Origin: Peredibacter starrii
GTDB taxonomy: Bacteria; Bdellovibrionota; Bacteriovoracia; Bacteriovoracales; Bacteriovoracaceae
Reading direction: 5' to 3'
Assembly (NCBI RefSeq): GCF_034259205.1
Contig: NZ_CP139487.1
Span: 3,224,001 to 3,288,000, forward strand
DNA: 64,000 nucleotides
Shown: in pieces, positions 6,370 through 45,106 of the stretch
Layout of the letters: each line of letters begins with the position of its first letter
Numbering within the stretch: the first letter of the stretch is position 1
The notes under the pieces: model-generated
What the model saw: the letters and a program-made list of their open reading frames with translations, nothing else
What the model was told of the DNA's origin: nothing
Databases searched by the model: none
Translations under genes and position numbers: made by a program

Positions 6370-6402
6370 TTAGGTGAATTCGCAGCTGTCTAACCTTTAA
6401 AC

Positions 6403-6430
6403 ACCCAGGTGATTATTTACCTGGGTTTTC
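6403..6430 (+). terminator. Rho-independent terminator
   Basis: An 8-bp perfect stem (ACCCAGGT / ACCTGGGT) with an 8-nt loop is followed by TTTC. It separates the DUF1624-type gene from the four-gene redox operon. Confidence 0.7.
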
Positions 6431-6465: not shown

Positions 6466-7404
6466 ATGATACATGCTCAGGGCAACCACTCAATCACTTA
6501 TGATTTTGACAAGGACATTCCTTGGAACCAAGGTTTGACCCTTTCTCAAACTCTTCTGCCAATTCCTGCGAATTGTTCCTTTATTAATGAGCTAACAAAA
6601 AATGAAAAGCACGCCGCTTCTTGGGTTCTCGGACTTCTAGCTGCAAGTGCCATTAAAGAACACGAAAAAGTTCTGAACCAAATGCGGACTATTTGTTTTG
6701 AGCGCGAACCAAAAGCAAAAAACAACCATGCATTCGCCATGGAGGGCAAACAGTTCTTCCTGGAAGAAGCTGTCCATTCTGCGGCCTTCTCTCGTTTTCT
6801 TGATATGACTGCCAAAGAATTAAACCTTTCAAGGGAAGAGCTATCCAGCTTCTTACCGTCTTTCGATAAGAAATCATTAGTGGCAAGACTTTACGCCTTC
6901 GAAGGCCTCTTAGGTGGCAAGGCCATCTGGTGGACAGTTGCTGCAACCGAAGAAGAAAGTATTCGTCTTTTTCAGCAAATGGCCCCTCATAAAAATCACA
7001 CAGACTCAGTCTTTTTTAGTCTCAATCGCCTTCATTTCCTTGAAGAATCAAGACACTCGTCATTTTCATATGAAATGCTCTCAATGCCTGAACAGTCTTG
7101 GCGTAGACCAATCACAAGACTAAGTTTCGCAGTTTCACGTATCCTGCAAACAATTTGGCTCATCGGAGAACTCAAGAGATTTCGTAAGGTCTCTCAATTT
7201 CAGGACCGTCACCCGATTTTAAAATCAATGAATCAGGTCGTAGAAAAGATCGATGTCCTTCCATTCAAATCTAAGTTGAAACTTATCTTCAATGAGATTT
7301 CTTATATCAAGATGATGACTCAACCTGAAAAGCATCCTCGTCTTAAAAAGACCCTCGCAAAAATTGGAGCATTTGTTCTTAAAACTCCGGGGATCAAATC
7401 ATGA
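6466..7404 (+). CDS. Ferritin-like di-iron protein (AurF-like / PF10118-like)
   Basis: This 312-aa, mostly helical protein keeps a complete set of carboxylate/His ligands in four-helix order: E65 or E67, E101-x-x-H104, E146, and H190 with E194-x-x-H197. The HFLEESRH block reproduces the His-x3-Glu-x2-His spacing of AurF-type N-oxygenases and resembles the WHxxEExEH block of PF10118 'predicted metal-dependent hydrolases'. It is likely an O2-activating di-iron enzyme; the substrate is unknown. It is first in an operon whose four genes overlap by 4 nt, next to a desaturase, so a lipid-linked substrate is plausible (inference). Confidence 0.78.
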   Translation: MIHAQGNHSITYDFDKDIPWNQGLTLSQTLLPIPANCSFINELTKNEKHAASWVLGLLAASAIKEHEKVLNQMRTICFEREPKAKNNHAFAMEGKQFFLEEAVHSAAFSRFLDMTAKELNLSREELSSFLPSFDKKSLVARLYAFEGLLGGKAIWWTVAATEEESIRLFQQMAPHKNHTDSVFFSLNRLHFLEESRHSSFSYEMLSMPEQSWRRPITRLSFAVSRILQTIWLIGELKRFRKVSQFQDRHPILKSMNQVVEKIDVLPFKSKLKLIFNEISYIKMMTQPEKHPRLKKTLAKIGAFVLKTPGIKS

Positions 7405-8156
7405 AAAAACCACTTTGTGTTTTCCTTCATGGCTATCCAAACAATCCGCTTCTTTGGAAAGAGCAGATTGAGAAGATGCAGGATCAATTTACGATCTTAA
7501 ATCTTGCTCTACCTGGCAGCACCAACGGCCTTGTTTCTCAATCTGAGTTGAAATTAGAAAAAATCGTTAGAAATATTGTGGCCGAGATTACTGCTCAAAA
7601 TAAAGATGAGATCATTCTCATTGGCCATGACGTTGGAAGCTTCATCCTTTCAGAAGTTTCTAAACATCTTTCAAATAAGGTCAAGGCCCAGGTCTTTATG
7701 GCCGGCATGGACTTCAAACTCTTCCGCAAGCGTCTTCTCTCATCAACTCAGTTCTTCAAATCTTGGTATGTATTTCTGCTTCAAATCCCGGGTCTCTCTG
7801 AGGCCTTCGTCGCTAAGTTTCGTCCTCTACTTTCGAAAAATGTCTACGACATGTCTCACATTGCAGAAAATGCATCACTAAGAACTGAAGCTCCTTTTGG
7901 CTTTACGCCGATTGGTCTTTATCGAGAGCTAAGAACGGGAATGTTTCTTTCAACGCCAAAGAAGTCTCAGGTTCCGACACTCCTTCTTTTTGGGAAAGAC
8001 GATAAATTTATCAAAGCACCAAACTCACAAGACATACGTCCCTTTTACTCTGAAGCTGAAGTAAAGGTTTTAGACGGTGGTCACTGGTTTTTAAGAGAAA
8101 ATCCGGAACTCGTAAATCAGACGATTCAGAATTTTCTTCAAAAGGCGGCCCTATGA
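7401..8156 (+). CDS. Alpha/beta hydrolase with Asp nucleophile elbow
   Basis: The 251-aa alpha/beta-hydrolase-fold protein has the oxyanion-hole motif FLHGYPNNPLLW near the N terminus and the nucleophile elbow GHDVGS. There an Asp replaces the usual Ser, as in epoxide hydrolases, haloalkane dehalogenases and OleB. The catalytic His lies in LDGGHWFLRENPE near the C terminus. It would hydrolyse a substrate through an aspartyl-ester intermediate. It starts within the stop of the di-iron gene (ATGA) and ends within the start of the desaturase (ATGA), so it is translationally coupled. Cytoplasmic; substrate unknown. Confidence 0.85.
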   Translation: MKKPLCVFLHGYPNNPLLWKEQIEKMQDQFTILNLALPGSTNGLVSQSELKLEKIVRNIVAEITAQNKDEIILIGHDVGSFILSEVSKHLSNKVKAQVFMAGMDFKLFRKRLLSSTQFFKSWYVFLLQIPGLSEAFVAKFRPLLSKNVYDMSHIAENASLRTEAPFGFTPIGLYRELRTGMFLSTPKKSQVPTLLLFGKDDKFIKAPNSQDIRPFYSEAEVKVLDGGHWFLRENPELVNQTIQNFLQKAAL

Positions 8157-8968
8157 AAATTACTTTCGCAAATTTTCGCAAAGACCCTTTTTTCTTCTTC
8201 AAGTATTTCACAGCTCAGATGCTAATCATGATGGTTCTTGGCTTCCTATGCAAAGACCTGGTTTCATCTGAACTGTCTTTGAACCTCAATCATCTCTTAG
8301 TTCTTCCACTTGCAGTGGTTTTTGGTCTTCAATTACCTGTGGCACTTCATAACGCCGTTCACTTTAATATTAAGCCGAGAATGCTCAATGAAATCGTGGG
8401 CGAAATCTGCGGCTTCTTCGTACTGTTTGGTATGGCCCCATTCAGAATCAGCCACGTCCTTCACCACGCGAATGCTGATGATCACGAGCTTGATCCACAT
8501 CCTCCAATGGGAAAGAACTTCTTGTACTTCCTTGCCACAACTCAACTGAATACAGTTCGCGTAATCAGTAACCAATACTTTAGTATCCACGGTCGCTCTG
8601 CAAAGACTTATTCAATTATGGGCACGCAGATGGCGGCCTACTATGTAGGTCTTGCTTTGCGGGCATTCATTTGGTGGAAGGTCTTGGGACCAACTTACTT
8701 CGTGGCCTTCTACTTACCGGCCTATTTAACAAACTTAGTGGTATTCGCTCACATCAACTGGGCAACACATAAGACAATGGAAGATGGCTCAGTTGAAATT
8801 GTGAACCTTAATCACAATCTTTACTATAAGACGGTAAACTTCCTAGGTGCCGGTGCTTACTATCATCTTAACCATCACTTAAAACCGAATCTTTATGATC
8901 CTTCTAAGTACGAGGCTCCGGTGGCGAAGAAGCCCAAGCTTTGTCTGGTTGAGGAGATCTCTGCCTGA
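8153..8968 (+). CDS. Fatty acid desaturase family membrane protein
   Basis: The 271-aa membrane di-iron protein has the three His boxes of the FA_desaturase family: HNAVH (about residue 66), HVLHHANADDH (about 103) and YHLNHHLKP (about 242), plus an extra HINWATH. There are about four to five hydrophobic segments. Members introduce double bonds or hydroxyl/keto groups into acyl chains or carotenoids using O2. It shares 4-nt overlaps with the hydrolase upstream and the flavin oxidoreductase downstream (CTGA). Carotenoid or lipid oxidation are both possible. Confidence 0.88.
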   Translation: MKITFANFRKDPFFFFKYFTAQMLIMMVLGFLCKDLVSSELSLNLNHLLVLPLAVVFGLQLPVALHNAVHFNIKPRMLNEIVGEICGFFVLFGMAPFRISHVLHHANADDHELDPHPPMGKNFLYFLATTQLNTVRVISNQYFSIHGRSAKTYSIMGTQMAAYYVGLALRAFIWWKVLGPTYFVAFYLPAYLTNLVVFAHINWATHKTMEDGSVEIVNLNHNLYYKTVNFLGAGAYYHLNHHLKPNLYDPSKYEAPVAKKPKLCLVEEISA

Positions 8969-10206
8969 TACCTTCATATGATTTTATCATCGTTGGTGCA
9001 GGACTCGCAGGGCTCACGGCCCATCATCGCCTAGTTCAAAACGGCTTCTCAGTTCTTCAAATTGAAAAAGACACGATCGTTGGTGGTCGAGTAAGAACTC
9101 TTAACCTTCAAGGAGCAAAGGCGGATGTCGGAGCTCAGTTCTTCACTCGTGGCTATCCTCTCATCTCCAATCTAGTAAAAGAACTAAAACTTGAAACCCA
9201 AGATAGCTGTGCGCTCATGGGTTTTATGATGAAAGAGAAGAATCTTGTCGTTAACACCAAGAATCCATTTTCATCGCTAACTCAAGGATTAGTTTCTCCG
9301 AGATCATTCCTGAAGCTCGCTCAGATTCTTGTCTATTTTAAATTAAAGCACCGAAAGCTTGCTCTGGAAGACATCACTGCGCTGGCAAAGTTTGATAACA
9401 TGAGTGCGGAAGACTTTTGTCTTAAATACTTAAATGACGAAATTCTTCGCAACTTCTTTGCTCCCTACTTCTCAGCTTTTAACTACGCCTTTGCTAATGA
9501 ACTATCGGCCTCCATGATGGTGCGAGCTCTCGCTCATATGGCAGAAGGGAAATCACTATTTGGTTTGAGTGAGGGGCTTGCAGGACTCCCTCTTACTTTG
9601 GCCCAAAACAAAAACATCATGACTGATACGGCCGTCCATCAGATAAAGGGTGAAGAAGTCACAACTGATAAAGGTGTGTTTAAAGGAAAGAAGATTATTG
9701 TTGCGACTACGGCCACTGTCGCAGAAAAGCTTCTGAAAGATAAGTTTCCAACGTCACTTAAGACCAAGTACTCTCCTTCGACCCATGAAGCGATACTTTG
9801 CAAAAAGAATATCAAGAAAGGTCCTTACGGTACTCTGGTGCTGCCGGAGAGAAATCCATTCATCAATGTCGTGACGAATGAAGCTCAAAAAAATACAAAG
9901 TTAGTCCCTGAAGGTTTAAAGCTCATCGGAGTACTAAGAAGCCGCGAAGGCCATTCACAAAATGACTTTTCGGATAAATGGCGTTTATTAGGAATTAAAG
10001 AAGCGGATGTTCTCGATTACCGTATCACCAAATGGGATGAAGCAATTCCTGTATGTGCTCCCGGTAGAGCAAAAGAAGTCCTCGCTTATCGAGAGTCGCT
10101 GAAAGCAACTGACCAACTATTTTTAGCAGGTGACTATCTCGGCACTCCCTGTGCAGAAGGTGCGGTGGAGTCTGGAACTTTTATCGCGAGTCTCTTTACG
10201 AGATAA
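8965..10206 (+). CDS. Flavin-dependent amine oxidase / desaturase-like oxidoreductase with CTG start
   Basis: The reading frame is open from 8953 onward, but the first ATG (9217) lies after the FAD motif. Codons from 8965 give a proper N terminus: YDFIIVGAGLAGLTAHHRL (Rossmann GxGxxG), then IVGGRVRT. The likely start is CTG at 8965, overlapping the desaturase stop as CTGA and placed 8 nt after GAGGAG. The resulting 413-aa protein ends with the usual flavin motif FLAGDYLGTPCAEGAVESG. Family: flavin amine oxidase / phytoene-desaturase / protoporphyrinogen-oxidase-like. It is last in the redox operon, and its 3' end overlaps a convergent hydrolase gene by 11 nt. Confidence 0.82.
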   Translation: MIPSYDFIIVGAGLAGLTAHHRLVQNGFSVLQIEKDTIVGGRVRTLNLQGAKADVGAQFFTRGYPLISNLVKELKLETQDSCALMGFMMKEKNLVVNTKNPFSSLTQGLVSPRSFLKLAQILVYFKLKHRKLALEDITALAKFDNMSAEDFCLKYLNDEILRNFFAPYFSAFNYAFANELSASMMVRALAHMAEGKSLFGLSEGLAGLPLTLAQNKNIMTDTAVHQIKGEEVTTDKGVFKGKKIIVATTATVAEKLLKDKFPTSLKTKYSPSTHEAILCKKNIKKGPYGTLVLPERNPFINVVTNEAQKNTKLVPEGLKLIGVLRSREGHSQNDFSDKWRLLGIKEADVLDYRITKWDEAIPVCAPGRAKEVLAYRESLKATDQLFLAGDYLGTPCAEGAVESGTFIASLFTR

Positions 10207-10882
10207 AATCTAATAGAATCATATTAAGAATCCCAGGTTGCTCGAGTGGAACAAAGTGACCGCAGTCATTTAAAGATTCAAATTTGGCGTTCTTTGGATT
10301 CTTAGCGGTCCTCTCAATGGCCGAGGGTAGAACAATCTTATCATCCTCACCTGCTACATAAAGCATCGGTAGAGTGACTTTTTGAAGATCGGCAGAGATG
10401 TTCCTTCTTTCAAGAGTCGCCTTGAGCTGCCGGAGATAAACTTCCTTAGCGTCAGCTCCTGCCATGGCATGAATGGTATTTCTAATTTCAAGGTTCTCGT
10501 ATGAAGCGGGAGCGAGATAATCCTTCAAACGCTTATCGGTGATTCCTGTGAACTTTCCCTTCTCTAAAGCAGGCAATGTGTCCAGAACGAGCTTCTTCTC
10601 CTCTGGAGGATATCCTTCCCCTGAAGCAGCAATCACAACTAGCTTCTCAACTCTCTCAGGGTATTTAATCGCAAATTCCTGGGCAACATGTCCTCCCATG
10701 GAAAAACCTATGAGGGTCATTTTCTTCTGCGGAAGTTTGCGAACTAATTCGAGCATCTCTTCAATTGAATCGGAGTGACGAAGATCAATTACCGCATGAT
10801 TCGGAAACTCTCTCAATTGATATTGGAAGATTCGTTCATCACATAAAGTACCCGGTAGGAAAACACAGAAGCTCGAGATCAT
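10196..10882 (-). CDS. Alpha/beta hydrolase (Ser nucleophile)
   Basis: The 228-aa alpha/beta-hydrolase has FLPGTLCDERIF as the oxyanion-hole region, the elbow GFSMGGH with a Ser nucleophile, and the catalytic His in CGHFVPLEQP. It resembles carboxylesterase/MenH-like hydrolases. No signal peptide is seen. Its start overlaps the stop of the class D beta-lactamase gene by 4 nt, so the two form an operon, though one product is exported and the other cytoplasmic. Substrate unknown. Confidence 0.85.
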   Translation of the reverse strand: MISSFCVFLPGTLCDERIFQYQLREFPNHAVIDLRHSDSIEEMLELVRKLPQKKMTLIGFSMGGHVAQEFAIKYPERVEKLVVIAASGEGYPPEEKKLVLDTLPALEKGKFTGITDKRLKDYLAPASYENLEIRNTIHAMAGADAKEVYLRQLKATLERRNISADLQKVTLPMLYVAGEDDKIVLPSAIERTAKNPKNAKFESLNDCGHFVPLEQPGILNMILLDFIS

Positions 10883-43848: not shown

Positions 43849-44240
43849 TCACCATCATTCTTTTATTCTCATTCACGGCCGTGGTTCACGGTTCGGATGA
43901 TAAATCCATGAAAGAACTGTTCATGAAATATGATCAGGTCATGGACAATAAAAAAATTGAGCTGATCGATGAGGTCTTCTCACAAAAGTTCATCAAGGCC
44001 AGTGGCGGTAAGGAAGAACTGATTTCCAAAATCAAAGAGCTTCCTCATTCGTCTAACAAAAGCAAACCTCTTGCCCCTGATCTCACCTGGAGAAAGGGAC
44101 TTAAAAACGAGATGTATTTTGCGAAGGTGAAAGAACCTTCTGTGAATAAAAGCAAAAAAGACGCTCATGAAACAGAGTTCATGGTGATCAAAGAAGACGG
44201 TAAACTTAAAATCGATGGAACACTTGGTGATGGTAATTAA
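43833..44240 (+). CDS. Small exported protein following amidase
   Basis: The 135-aa protein has a signal peptide (about residues 1-20, ending VVHGS) and a charged mature domain of about 115 aa with a pattern like SnoaL/NTF2-type small proteins (FMVIKEDGKLKIDG) but no certain match. It starts 16 nt inside the amidase gene's end, so the pair is coupled. Its own last bases overlap the next lipoprotein gene. Function unknown. Confidence 0.65.
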   Translation: MRIQLITIILLFSFTAVVHGSDDKSMKELFMKYDQVMDNKKIELIDEVFSQKFIKASGGKEELISKIKELPHSSNKSKPLAPDLTWRKGLKNEMYFAKVKEPSVNKSKKDAHETEFMVIKEDGKLKIDGTLGDGN

Positions 44241-44562
44241 ACTTCTCGCTGTTCTATTACTGGCAGTTGGTTGTGGTTCGGAAGCGAACCTCAGTAACTC
44301 TGCTCTTGAGCAGTCTTCGAAACTTTCGGACAACTCGAGTATTAAGGCCACTTCAATTGGCACACTTGTTCGCCAGAACGGTACTTCAGTAAAATACGAT
44401 CAACTCCAAATCAACGGGCAGCTTTATAAAGTTAGCCTTAGTAGTTCGATTCTCTCTCTCGAATTCATTGCTAAGTATCCACTGGGCGCGCAGGTACCGG
44501 TGAAATATAAGGGTAATGTTCGCAGTCAGGAAGTATTACTAGAAGTAATTCAAGCACAATAA
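44230..44562 (+). CDS. Small predicted lipoprotein
   Basis: The 110-aa protein has a lipobox LLAVGC (Cys15) from a start at 44230. The mature part is hydrophilic, Ser/Asn-rich, then a beta-rich region (about 45-108). The ATG overlaps the preceding gene's end by 11 nt; a longer start at 44215 is less likely. No family is recognised. A strong hairpin follows immediately. Confidence 0.65.
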   Translation: MVIKLLAVLLLAVGCGSEANLSNSALEQSSKLSDNSSIKATSIGTLVRQNGTSVKYDQLQINGQLYKVSLSSSILSLEFIAKYPLGAQVPVKYKGNVRSQEVLLEVIQAQ

Positions 44563-44588
44563 AAAAGGGCCTCTTTCGAGGCCCTTTT
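44563..44588. terminator. Bidirectional Rho-independent terminator
   Basis: A perfect stem GGGCCTC / GAGGCCC with a TTTC loop is flanked by AAAA and TTTT, so it can terminate both the plus-strand lipoprotein and the minus-strand nuo operon. Confidence 0.85.
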
Positions 44589-44596
44589 CATTAGCA

Positions 44597-45106
44597 TTAA
44601 GCTTTAACGATACGATCGCGCCAAGCAACTACATCAGGAGCGAGGTAGTCGTACTTCATGGCATCGATTGTGTATTGAGAGAATTCGTAGTCATGAGAGT
44701 GAGTCAAACATTCAGTTGGACACACAGTCGTACAAAGACCGCAATAACAACATAGAGAAGTATCAATTGTGAACTGAGTAAGTTTCAAACGAATCGGCTG
44801 ACCGTTTGAAGTCTTCTTGATCTCAGCACCTTCAGGAAGTTTTTCTGAAGCAATGTAAATACAATCAACCGGACAGGCCATTGCACACTGAGTACAGCTG
44901 ATACAGTTTTGAGCATCGTTGAAGAGACGCATACGAGCTCTTTCAGGAAGAACTTCGCGTACTTCTGGGTACTCGATTGAAGCAGGCTTAACTGCCCATA
45001 CGTATCTGAAAGTGATCCACATACCTTTAGCGGTTGTGTAGATACCATCATAAAGTGCTTTAAAATATTCCTTAACGGAAGACGATTCGTGAACTGTAGT
45101 GCTCAT
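44597..45106 (-). CDS. nuoI: NADH-quinone oxidoreductase subunit I (NuoI)
   Basis: The 169-aa protein has two 4Fe-4S ferredoxin motifs: CISCTQCAMACPVDCI and CCYCGLCTTVCPTECL. NuoI carries clusters N6a and N6b from the peripheral arm to NuoB. It overlaps nuoD by 4 nt and is last in the operon. A bidirectional terminator follows. NuoH, normally between D and I, is missing here. Confidence 0.95.
   Translation of the reverse strand: MSTTVHESSSVKEYFKALYDGIYTTAKGMWITFRYVWAVKPASIEYPEVREVLPERARMRLFNDAQNCISCTQCAMACPVDCIYIASEKLPEGAEIKKTSNGQPIRLKLTQFTIDTSLCCYCGLCTTVCPTECLTHSHDYEFSQYTIDAMKYDYLAPDVVAWRDRIVKA

Follow-up and report, generated by a model that had tools for sequence, protein, structure and literature searches.

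The AurF-type di-iron enzymes (PF11583) include the arylamine N-oxygenases AurF, CmlI and AzoC, whose site of three histidines and four carboxylates is largely unique to N-oxygenases (PMC12101540); in AzoC the ligands are E102, E137, H140, E198, H225, E229 and H232 (PMC6783550). The CylC dimetal halogenases are AurF-like di-iron enzymes as well and act on fatty acyl chains (PMC8406957, PMC12101540). They carry a QExxH motif, in which Gln replaces the second-sphere Asp (PMC12101540). EphD of Mycobacterium, an epoxide hydrolase fused to a short-chain dehydrogenase/reductase (SDR), cleaves 9,10-cis-epoxystearic acid to the diol and acts on epoxymycolates (PMC7998700). Here we describe an operon of four plus-strand genes, g1 to g4, at positions 6466-10206 of a 64,000-nucleotide stretch of Peredibacter starrii DNA (Bdellovibrionota; NZ_CP139487.1, positions 3,224,001 to 3,288,000; hereafter the window), from a genome that forms a single 4.15-Mb contig. 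The genes encode an AurF/CmlI-fold di-iron protein, an epoxide-hydrolase-type alpha/beta hydrolase, a membrane desaturase and a flavoenzyme. The individual parts all fall into known families; what is new, as far as the databases and papers searched show, is their combination: an AurF-type oxygenase paired with an epoxide hydrolase and linked to one desaturase family. Because g1 and g2 are always neighbors in the relatives examined, often beside desaturases, the genes probably serve an undescribed pathway that oxidizes an unsaturated lipid.

g1 was present in 31 of 369 genomes of the phylum, counting the window itself and one weak, broken match, and 30 g1 loci were fetched from the remaining genomes. 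In all of them g2 adjoined g1 (30/30, at 23-39% identity), and overlapping gene ends were common in these relatives too; adjacency and overlaps together place the arrangement beyond chance. Downstream of g1-g2, 11 loci carry one or two desaturases of the g3 family (type A), 16 carry an M24-like protein and an SDR (type B), and three stop at a contig edge. Both kinds of locus occur in one genome, G044, and in another, G088, four g3-type desaturases and a cytochrome P450 (P450) surround g1-g2. Conservation extends to the pair g1+g2 (30/30 loci) and, with the window included, to the trio g1+g2+desaturase (12 loci).

The original prediction had treated the four genes as one unit, and had made its case depend on the same order recurring in other genomes. 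That order was not recovered elsewhere, and the four genes are not conserved together, as g4 is absent from every other sampled g1-g2 locus. The statement that no named pathway fits the set held, with no published description of it in the databases and papers searched. The idea of an undescribed system stands, within the reach of these searches, for the g1-g2/desaturase module and is not supported for the four genes as a whole.

Beyond the 30 loci, g1 adjoins g2 in three additional Oligoflexales-type loci. A contig scan with the g1 alignment found 20 loci, all in Bdellovibrionota-, Oligoflexales- or Deltaproteobacteria-type records; it used a single peptide pattern and leaves room for occurrence in other groups. 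Plasmid tblastn searches, for which g1, g3 and the g1 of a type B locus served as queries, gave no matches. In the g1 tree, the window sequence pairs with that of its closest relative, G004; this pair is divergent, the window g1 lies on a very long branch, and the split between types A and B is weakly supported (80/46). Compared with the locus of this relative, g3 (8153-8968 against L032 9630-10463) is 65% identical, g1 39% and g2 34%.

g1 (6466-7404, 312 aa) passes the AurF model PF11583 narrowly (30.0 bits, cut-off 29.6, E 3.7e-7) and stays below the cut-off of PF10118, the 'metal-dependent hydrolase' family (21.5 bits, cut-off 33.2). All 24 aligned homologs match PF11583, and 11 of the 24 match PF10118 (E <= 0.01). 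The seven predicted ligands, three His and four carboxylates (E67, E101, H104, E162, H190, E194, H197), are invariant in 24 homologs, and their spacing (34, 3, 58, 28, 4, 3) agrees within one residue with that of AzoC (35, 3, 58, 27, 4, 3). For an AlphaFold2 model of g1 (pLDDT 88), the nearest solved structures are CmlI and AurF (for CmlI, Foldseek E 1.3e-3; VIA-align Z 15.8, rmsd 4.4 Å over 266 residues), followed by R2-like oxidases (Z 14.5). Judged by this model, the fold is clear and its margin over the R2-like oxidases modest. Identity to AurF and CmlI is about 10%, and N-oxygenase specificity is therefore not transferable to g1.

g2 (7401-8156, 251 aa) has the epoxide hydrolase 5ng7 as its top PDB match (E 1.9e-15). 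Its best NCBIfam model is PRK05855, an epoxide hydrolase-SDR fusion of the EphD type, at 71 bits against an equivalog cut-off of 455. We located an HGYP motif at 10-13, the predicted nucleophile D77 (in GHDVG), the cap tyrosines Y123 and Y174, the acid D201 and the base H228; all 23 aligned homologs keep HGxP, D77 and Y123, and nearly all keep Y174, D201 and H228. By its residues, g2 holds the whole epoxide-hydrolase catalytic set and is nearest to the EphD kind. The context of the nucleophile, GHDVG in g2 and GHDLG or GHDIG in its relatives, is without the halide-binding Trp of haloalkane dehalogenases.

g3 (8153-8968, 271 aa) matches PF00487, the membrane di-iron fatty acid desaturase/hydroxylase family (67.2 bits, cut-off 29.7, E 2.5e-18). 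Its ten histidines (H66/H70, H101/H104/H105, H200/H206, H238/H241/H242) are all invariant in 19 homologs. NCBIfam matches of the g3 family (CrtR, DesA, GntB) lie far under their cut-offs, and g3 itself scores 24.2 bits against the beta-carotene hydroxylase CrtR, for which the equivalog cut-off is 475. Two O2-activating iron enzymes with full ligand sets and an Asp-nucleophile alpha/beta hydrolase had been claimed for this operon. The conserved residues bear out the di-iron protein (g1) and the desaturase (g3), the structure prediction that had been suggested for the former returned a CmlI/AurF fold, and the hydrolase, with D77 in GHDVG, can now be named more closely as the epoxide-hydrolase type.

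Desaturases of the g3 type occur in 31 of 129 genomes of the family. Outside g1-g2 loci they stand in tandem pairs or beside a P450, and these include a second copy in the host genome, whose neighboring P450 resembles CYP97 and CYP102. Three loci from two genera (L170, L173, L174) combine a g3-type desaturase and a P450 with an epoxide-hydrolase-like protein that has HGFP, GHDWG and a cap tyrosine; its top solved relative, tested for one of the three, is again 5ng7. The P450 seems to take the place of g1 between desaturase and epoxide hydrolase, and so to replace it. Because of this apparent swap beside a desaturase and an epoxide hydrolase, these loci give the strongest hint that g1 is a carbon oxygenase.

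Some desaturase-P450 genes are found in other surroundings. A relative, G087, has a cassette of regulator, g3-type desaturase and P450 with nuoI on one side and an ampD-like gene on the other (L171 4380-7438). The equivalent spot in the window (44240-44597) has no room for the cassette genes; the host cassette, 55-66% identical to that of G087, is placed elsewhere (L127 4943-6633 and 6643-8001, at about 2.889 Mb of contig G000:C1). The cassette may move as a unit. In two genomes (L169 6491-9117, L176 6122-8819) the gene after the desaturase-P450 pair encodes a UGT-like glycosyltransferase, which suggests a glycosylated oxygenated lipid.

We propose that the operon is an oxidative lipid-modification module. 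In the scheme that we infer, from its substrate and the order of its steps to all of its chemistry, g3 would desaturate an acyl or long-chain lipid. g1, as a soluble di-iron oxygenase, would activate O2 and oxygenate the unsaturated product, most likely to an epoxide. g2 would open the epoxide, with Asp77 forming the ester intermediate, and so yield a vicinal diol, and g4 may then oxidize or isomerize the product. Taken jointly with the view that g4 is a recent, lineage-specific addition, we give this proposal a probability of roughly 0.4. It is supported by the full epoxide-hydrolase set of g2 with both cap tyrosines, by the 5ng7 and EphD-type matches of this protein, and by the one-family desaturases that accompany g2 in 11 further loci. 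The constant adjacency of g1 and g2, the invariance of all seven g1 ligands, the P450 loci and the desaturase-rich surroundings of g1-g2 in G088 speak for it as well. Soluble di-iron enzymes able to epoxidize include BoxB and methane monooxygenase.

Several observations weigh against the proposal. To our knowledge, no AurF-type enzyme epoxidizes, and the ligand set of g1 is the one described above as largely unique to N-oxygenases. PF00487 also includes hydroxylases. Sixteen loci have g1-g2 without desaturases and with M24 and SDR genes instead, the P450/epoxide-hydrolase/desaturase set was seen in two genera only, and the operon contains no electron-transfer partner. A wider version of the proposal would have the AurF-type (3-His/4-carboxylate) di-iron enzyme epoxidize alkenes as part of a membrane-lipid pathway in predatory bacteria, where it would form epoxy and dihydroxy lipids jointly with an EphD-type hydrolase and a desaturase dedicated to the pathway; a P450 would do the same job in sister lineages, and an M24-SDR variant of broader occurrence would act on another substrate. 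In this wider form it is doubtful.

Since g1 has the N-oxygenase type of site, N-oxygenation is the main rival explanation. g1 would then be a true N-oxygenase like AurF and CmlI, the operon would N-oxidize an amine (an aminolipid, a sphingoid base or a small amine natural product), and g2 and g4 would process the product. The nearly AzoC-like spacing of the seven ligands, the CmlI and AurF folds as nearest neighbors, the rarity of such a site outside N-oxygenases (PMC12101540) and the membership of g4 in the amine oxidase superfamily all fit this explanation. On the other hand, g1 is far removed from AurF and CmlI in sequence, its constant partner is of the epoxide-hydrolase type, the P450 swap points to oxygenation of carbon, and no amine-making gene is linked to the operon. 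We consider N-oxygenation unlikely.

The place of g4 within the lipid-modification module also has to be weighed. g4 (8965-10206, 413 aa with a probable CTG start) is an FAD-dependent oxidoreductase by its match to PF01593 (91.5 bits, cut-off 19.8, E 9e-26). The top Foldseek matches of its model (pLDDT 83) are protoporphyrinogen oxidase (PPO)-type and amine oxidases over the full length, in keeping with the earlier call of a flavoenzyme. A mechanical open reading frame finder begins the gene inside the FAD domain, at ATG 9217. The FAD-binding motif FIIVGAGLAGL starts a few codons past 8965, the interval from the in-frame stop at 8950 to this motif holds no ATG, GTG or TTG and offers CTG 8965 or weaker codons only, and AGGAG lies 8 nt upstream of the CTG. 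For these reasons translation of g4 probably starts at CTG 8965.

All four genes had been said to be joined by 4-nt overlaps. Coordinates, gene order and the ATGA overlaps at g1/g2 and g2/g3 agree with that description; the third overlap, CTGA at g3/g4, exists only if g4 starts at the CTG, which the original prediction did not mention. The overlap and the good ribosome-binding sequence suggest translational coupling of g4 to g3, and so argue against the view that the unit is g1-g2 (perhaps with g3) only and that g4, an enzyme unrelated to it, came to lie last in the transcript and has no part in the pathway. That view draws on the lack of a g4 counterpart beside g1-g2 in any other sampled locus, the closest relative included (G004 has g3 and lacks g4), and on the best g4 homolog in the phylum, which is 29% identical and unlinked to g1-g2. 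On balance it seems improbable.

At its upstream border the operon follows a plus-strand stem-loop at 6400-6429 (CCCAGGT/ACCTGGG, then TTTT), 3' of the preceding gene. The stem-loop was read from the sequence and has too few T for the pattern scan. Because the stem-loop is the probable end of the preceding transcript, the operon start was placed after it. In a sigma-70 scan, promoter-like sites were fewer than in shuffled sequences. At the other border, the 3' ends of g4 and of a convergent alpha/beta hydrolase gene on the opposite strand (10196-10882) overlap by 11 nt (10196-10206).

Modification of a lipid or a pigment had been suggested, and of the two, lipid is the best-supported hypothesis. 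A carotenoid as the substrate, to be hydroxylated, epoxidized or isomerized by the operon, would be compatible with a separate host carotenoid cluster of crtE, crtI, crtB and two lycopene cyclase-like genes, which crosses the contig ends (G000:C1:1-5022 and 4151000-4153408; L121, L122). It would also be compatible with the weak NCBIfam matches of 9 of 19 desaturases to the CrtR-type beta-carotene hydroxylase, the resemblance of g4 to the phytoene desaturase fold and that of the desaturase-linked P450 to CYP97. However, the operon is not close to the crt cluster, and crtB is present in only 3 of the 12 genomes with the g1-g2-desaturase module. Six genomes that are 94-100% complete (G004, G043, G044, G046, G047, G057) have neither crtB nor crtY. 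A test of the carotenoid link gave a Fisher p of 0.08 for genomes with the module and 1.0 for all desaturase genomes. As 9 of the 12 module genomes are without crtB, pigment modification is disfavored, and we regard it as very unlikely.

The weakest alternative is cryptic halogenation, in which g1 would be a di-iron halogenase like CylC, and g2 would either dehalogenate haloalkanes or displace the halide. It takes its appeal from the AurF-like nature of CylC, its fatty acyl substrates (PMC8406957, PMC12101540) and the Asp-nucleophile dehalogenases in the family of g2, and is hardly credible, as both assignments are rejected on residues: the position of the CylC Gln is E100 in g1 and E or D in nearly all homologs, leaving no QExxH, and g2 has no dehalogenase Trp after its nucleophile and retains the epoxide-hydrolase cap tyrosines.

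If the epoxide reading is true, AurF-like enzymes gain a new chemistry, at C=C instead of N, and the predatory Bdellovibrionota gain an oxygenated lipid. The module also offers a lead on unnamed clusters of PF10118 'metal-dependent hydrolase' and EphD-like genes in other phyla. On the Dietzia plasmid pDK313-58 (L131 30-4646), an M24-like protein, an EphD-like hydrolase-SDR fusion, a PF10118 protein and a PDR/VanB reductase are encoded in a row. M24 and EphD-like loci are also found in Burkholderia and Embleya, in the latter with a PF10118 gene nearby (L130, L132), and the unnamed M24/EphD-like/PF10118/PDR-VanB cluster recurs in Actinomycetota.

Set beside the described systems, g1 shares fold, seven ligands and ligand spacing with the arylamine N-oxygenases, but it differs from them by its sequence (about 10% identity), by a second-sphere residue that is mostly Glu in the g1 family and Asp in the N-oxygenases, and by its invariable position next to an epoxide-hydrolase-type gene. 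With CylC it has the AurF-like di-iron protein in common, but not the QExxH motif. g3 shares the fold family and histidine boxes of the PF00487 acyl desaturases and CrtR/GntB-type hydroxylases, among which it has no characterized close relative in NCBIfam. g4 has the same fold, over its full length, as the phytoene desaturase, protoporphyrinogen oxidase and amine oxidase flavoproteins of PF01593, to which it is 15-20% identical and among which no equivalog is matched. g2 is closest to the epoxide-hydrolase half of EphD, although it scores far under the equivalog cut-off and, at 251 aa, lacks the SDR domain; nor does the window operon contain an SDR gene. In type B loci, the two parts that are fused in EphD are present as separate hydrolase and SDR genes. 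The Dietzia pDK313-58 cluster differs from the window operon in having M24, SDR and reductase genes, and its di-iron-like protein belongs to PF10118, which g1 matches below cut-off only. It resembles the 16 type B loci, with their M24 and SDR genes, in bringing together a di-iron protein, an EphD-type hydrolase, an M24 protein and an SDR.

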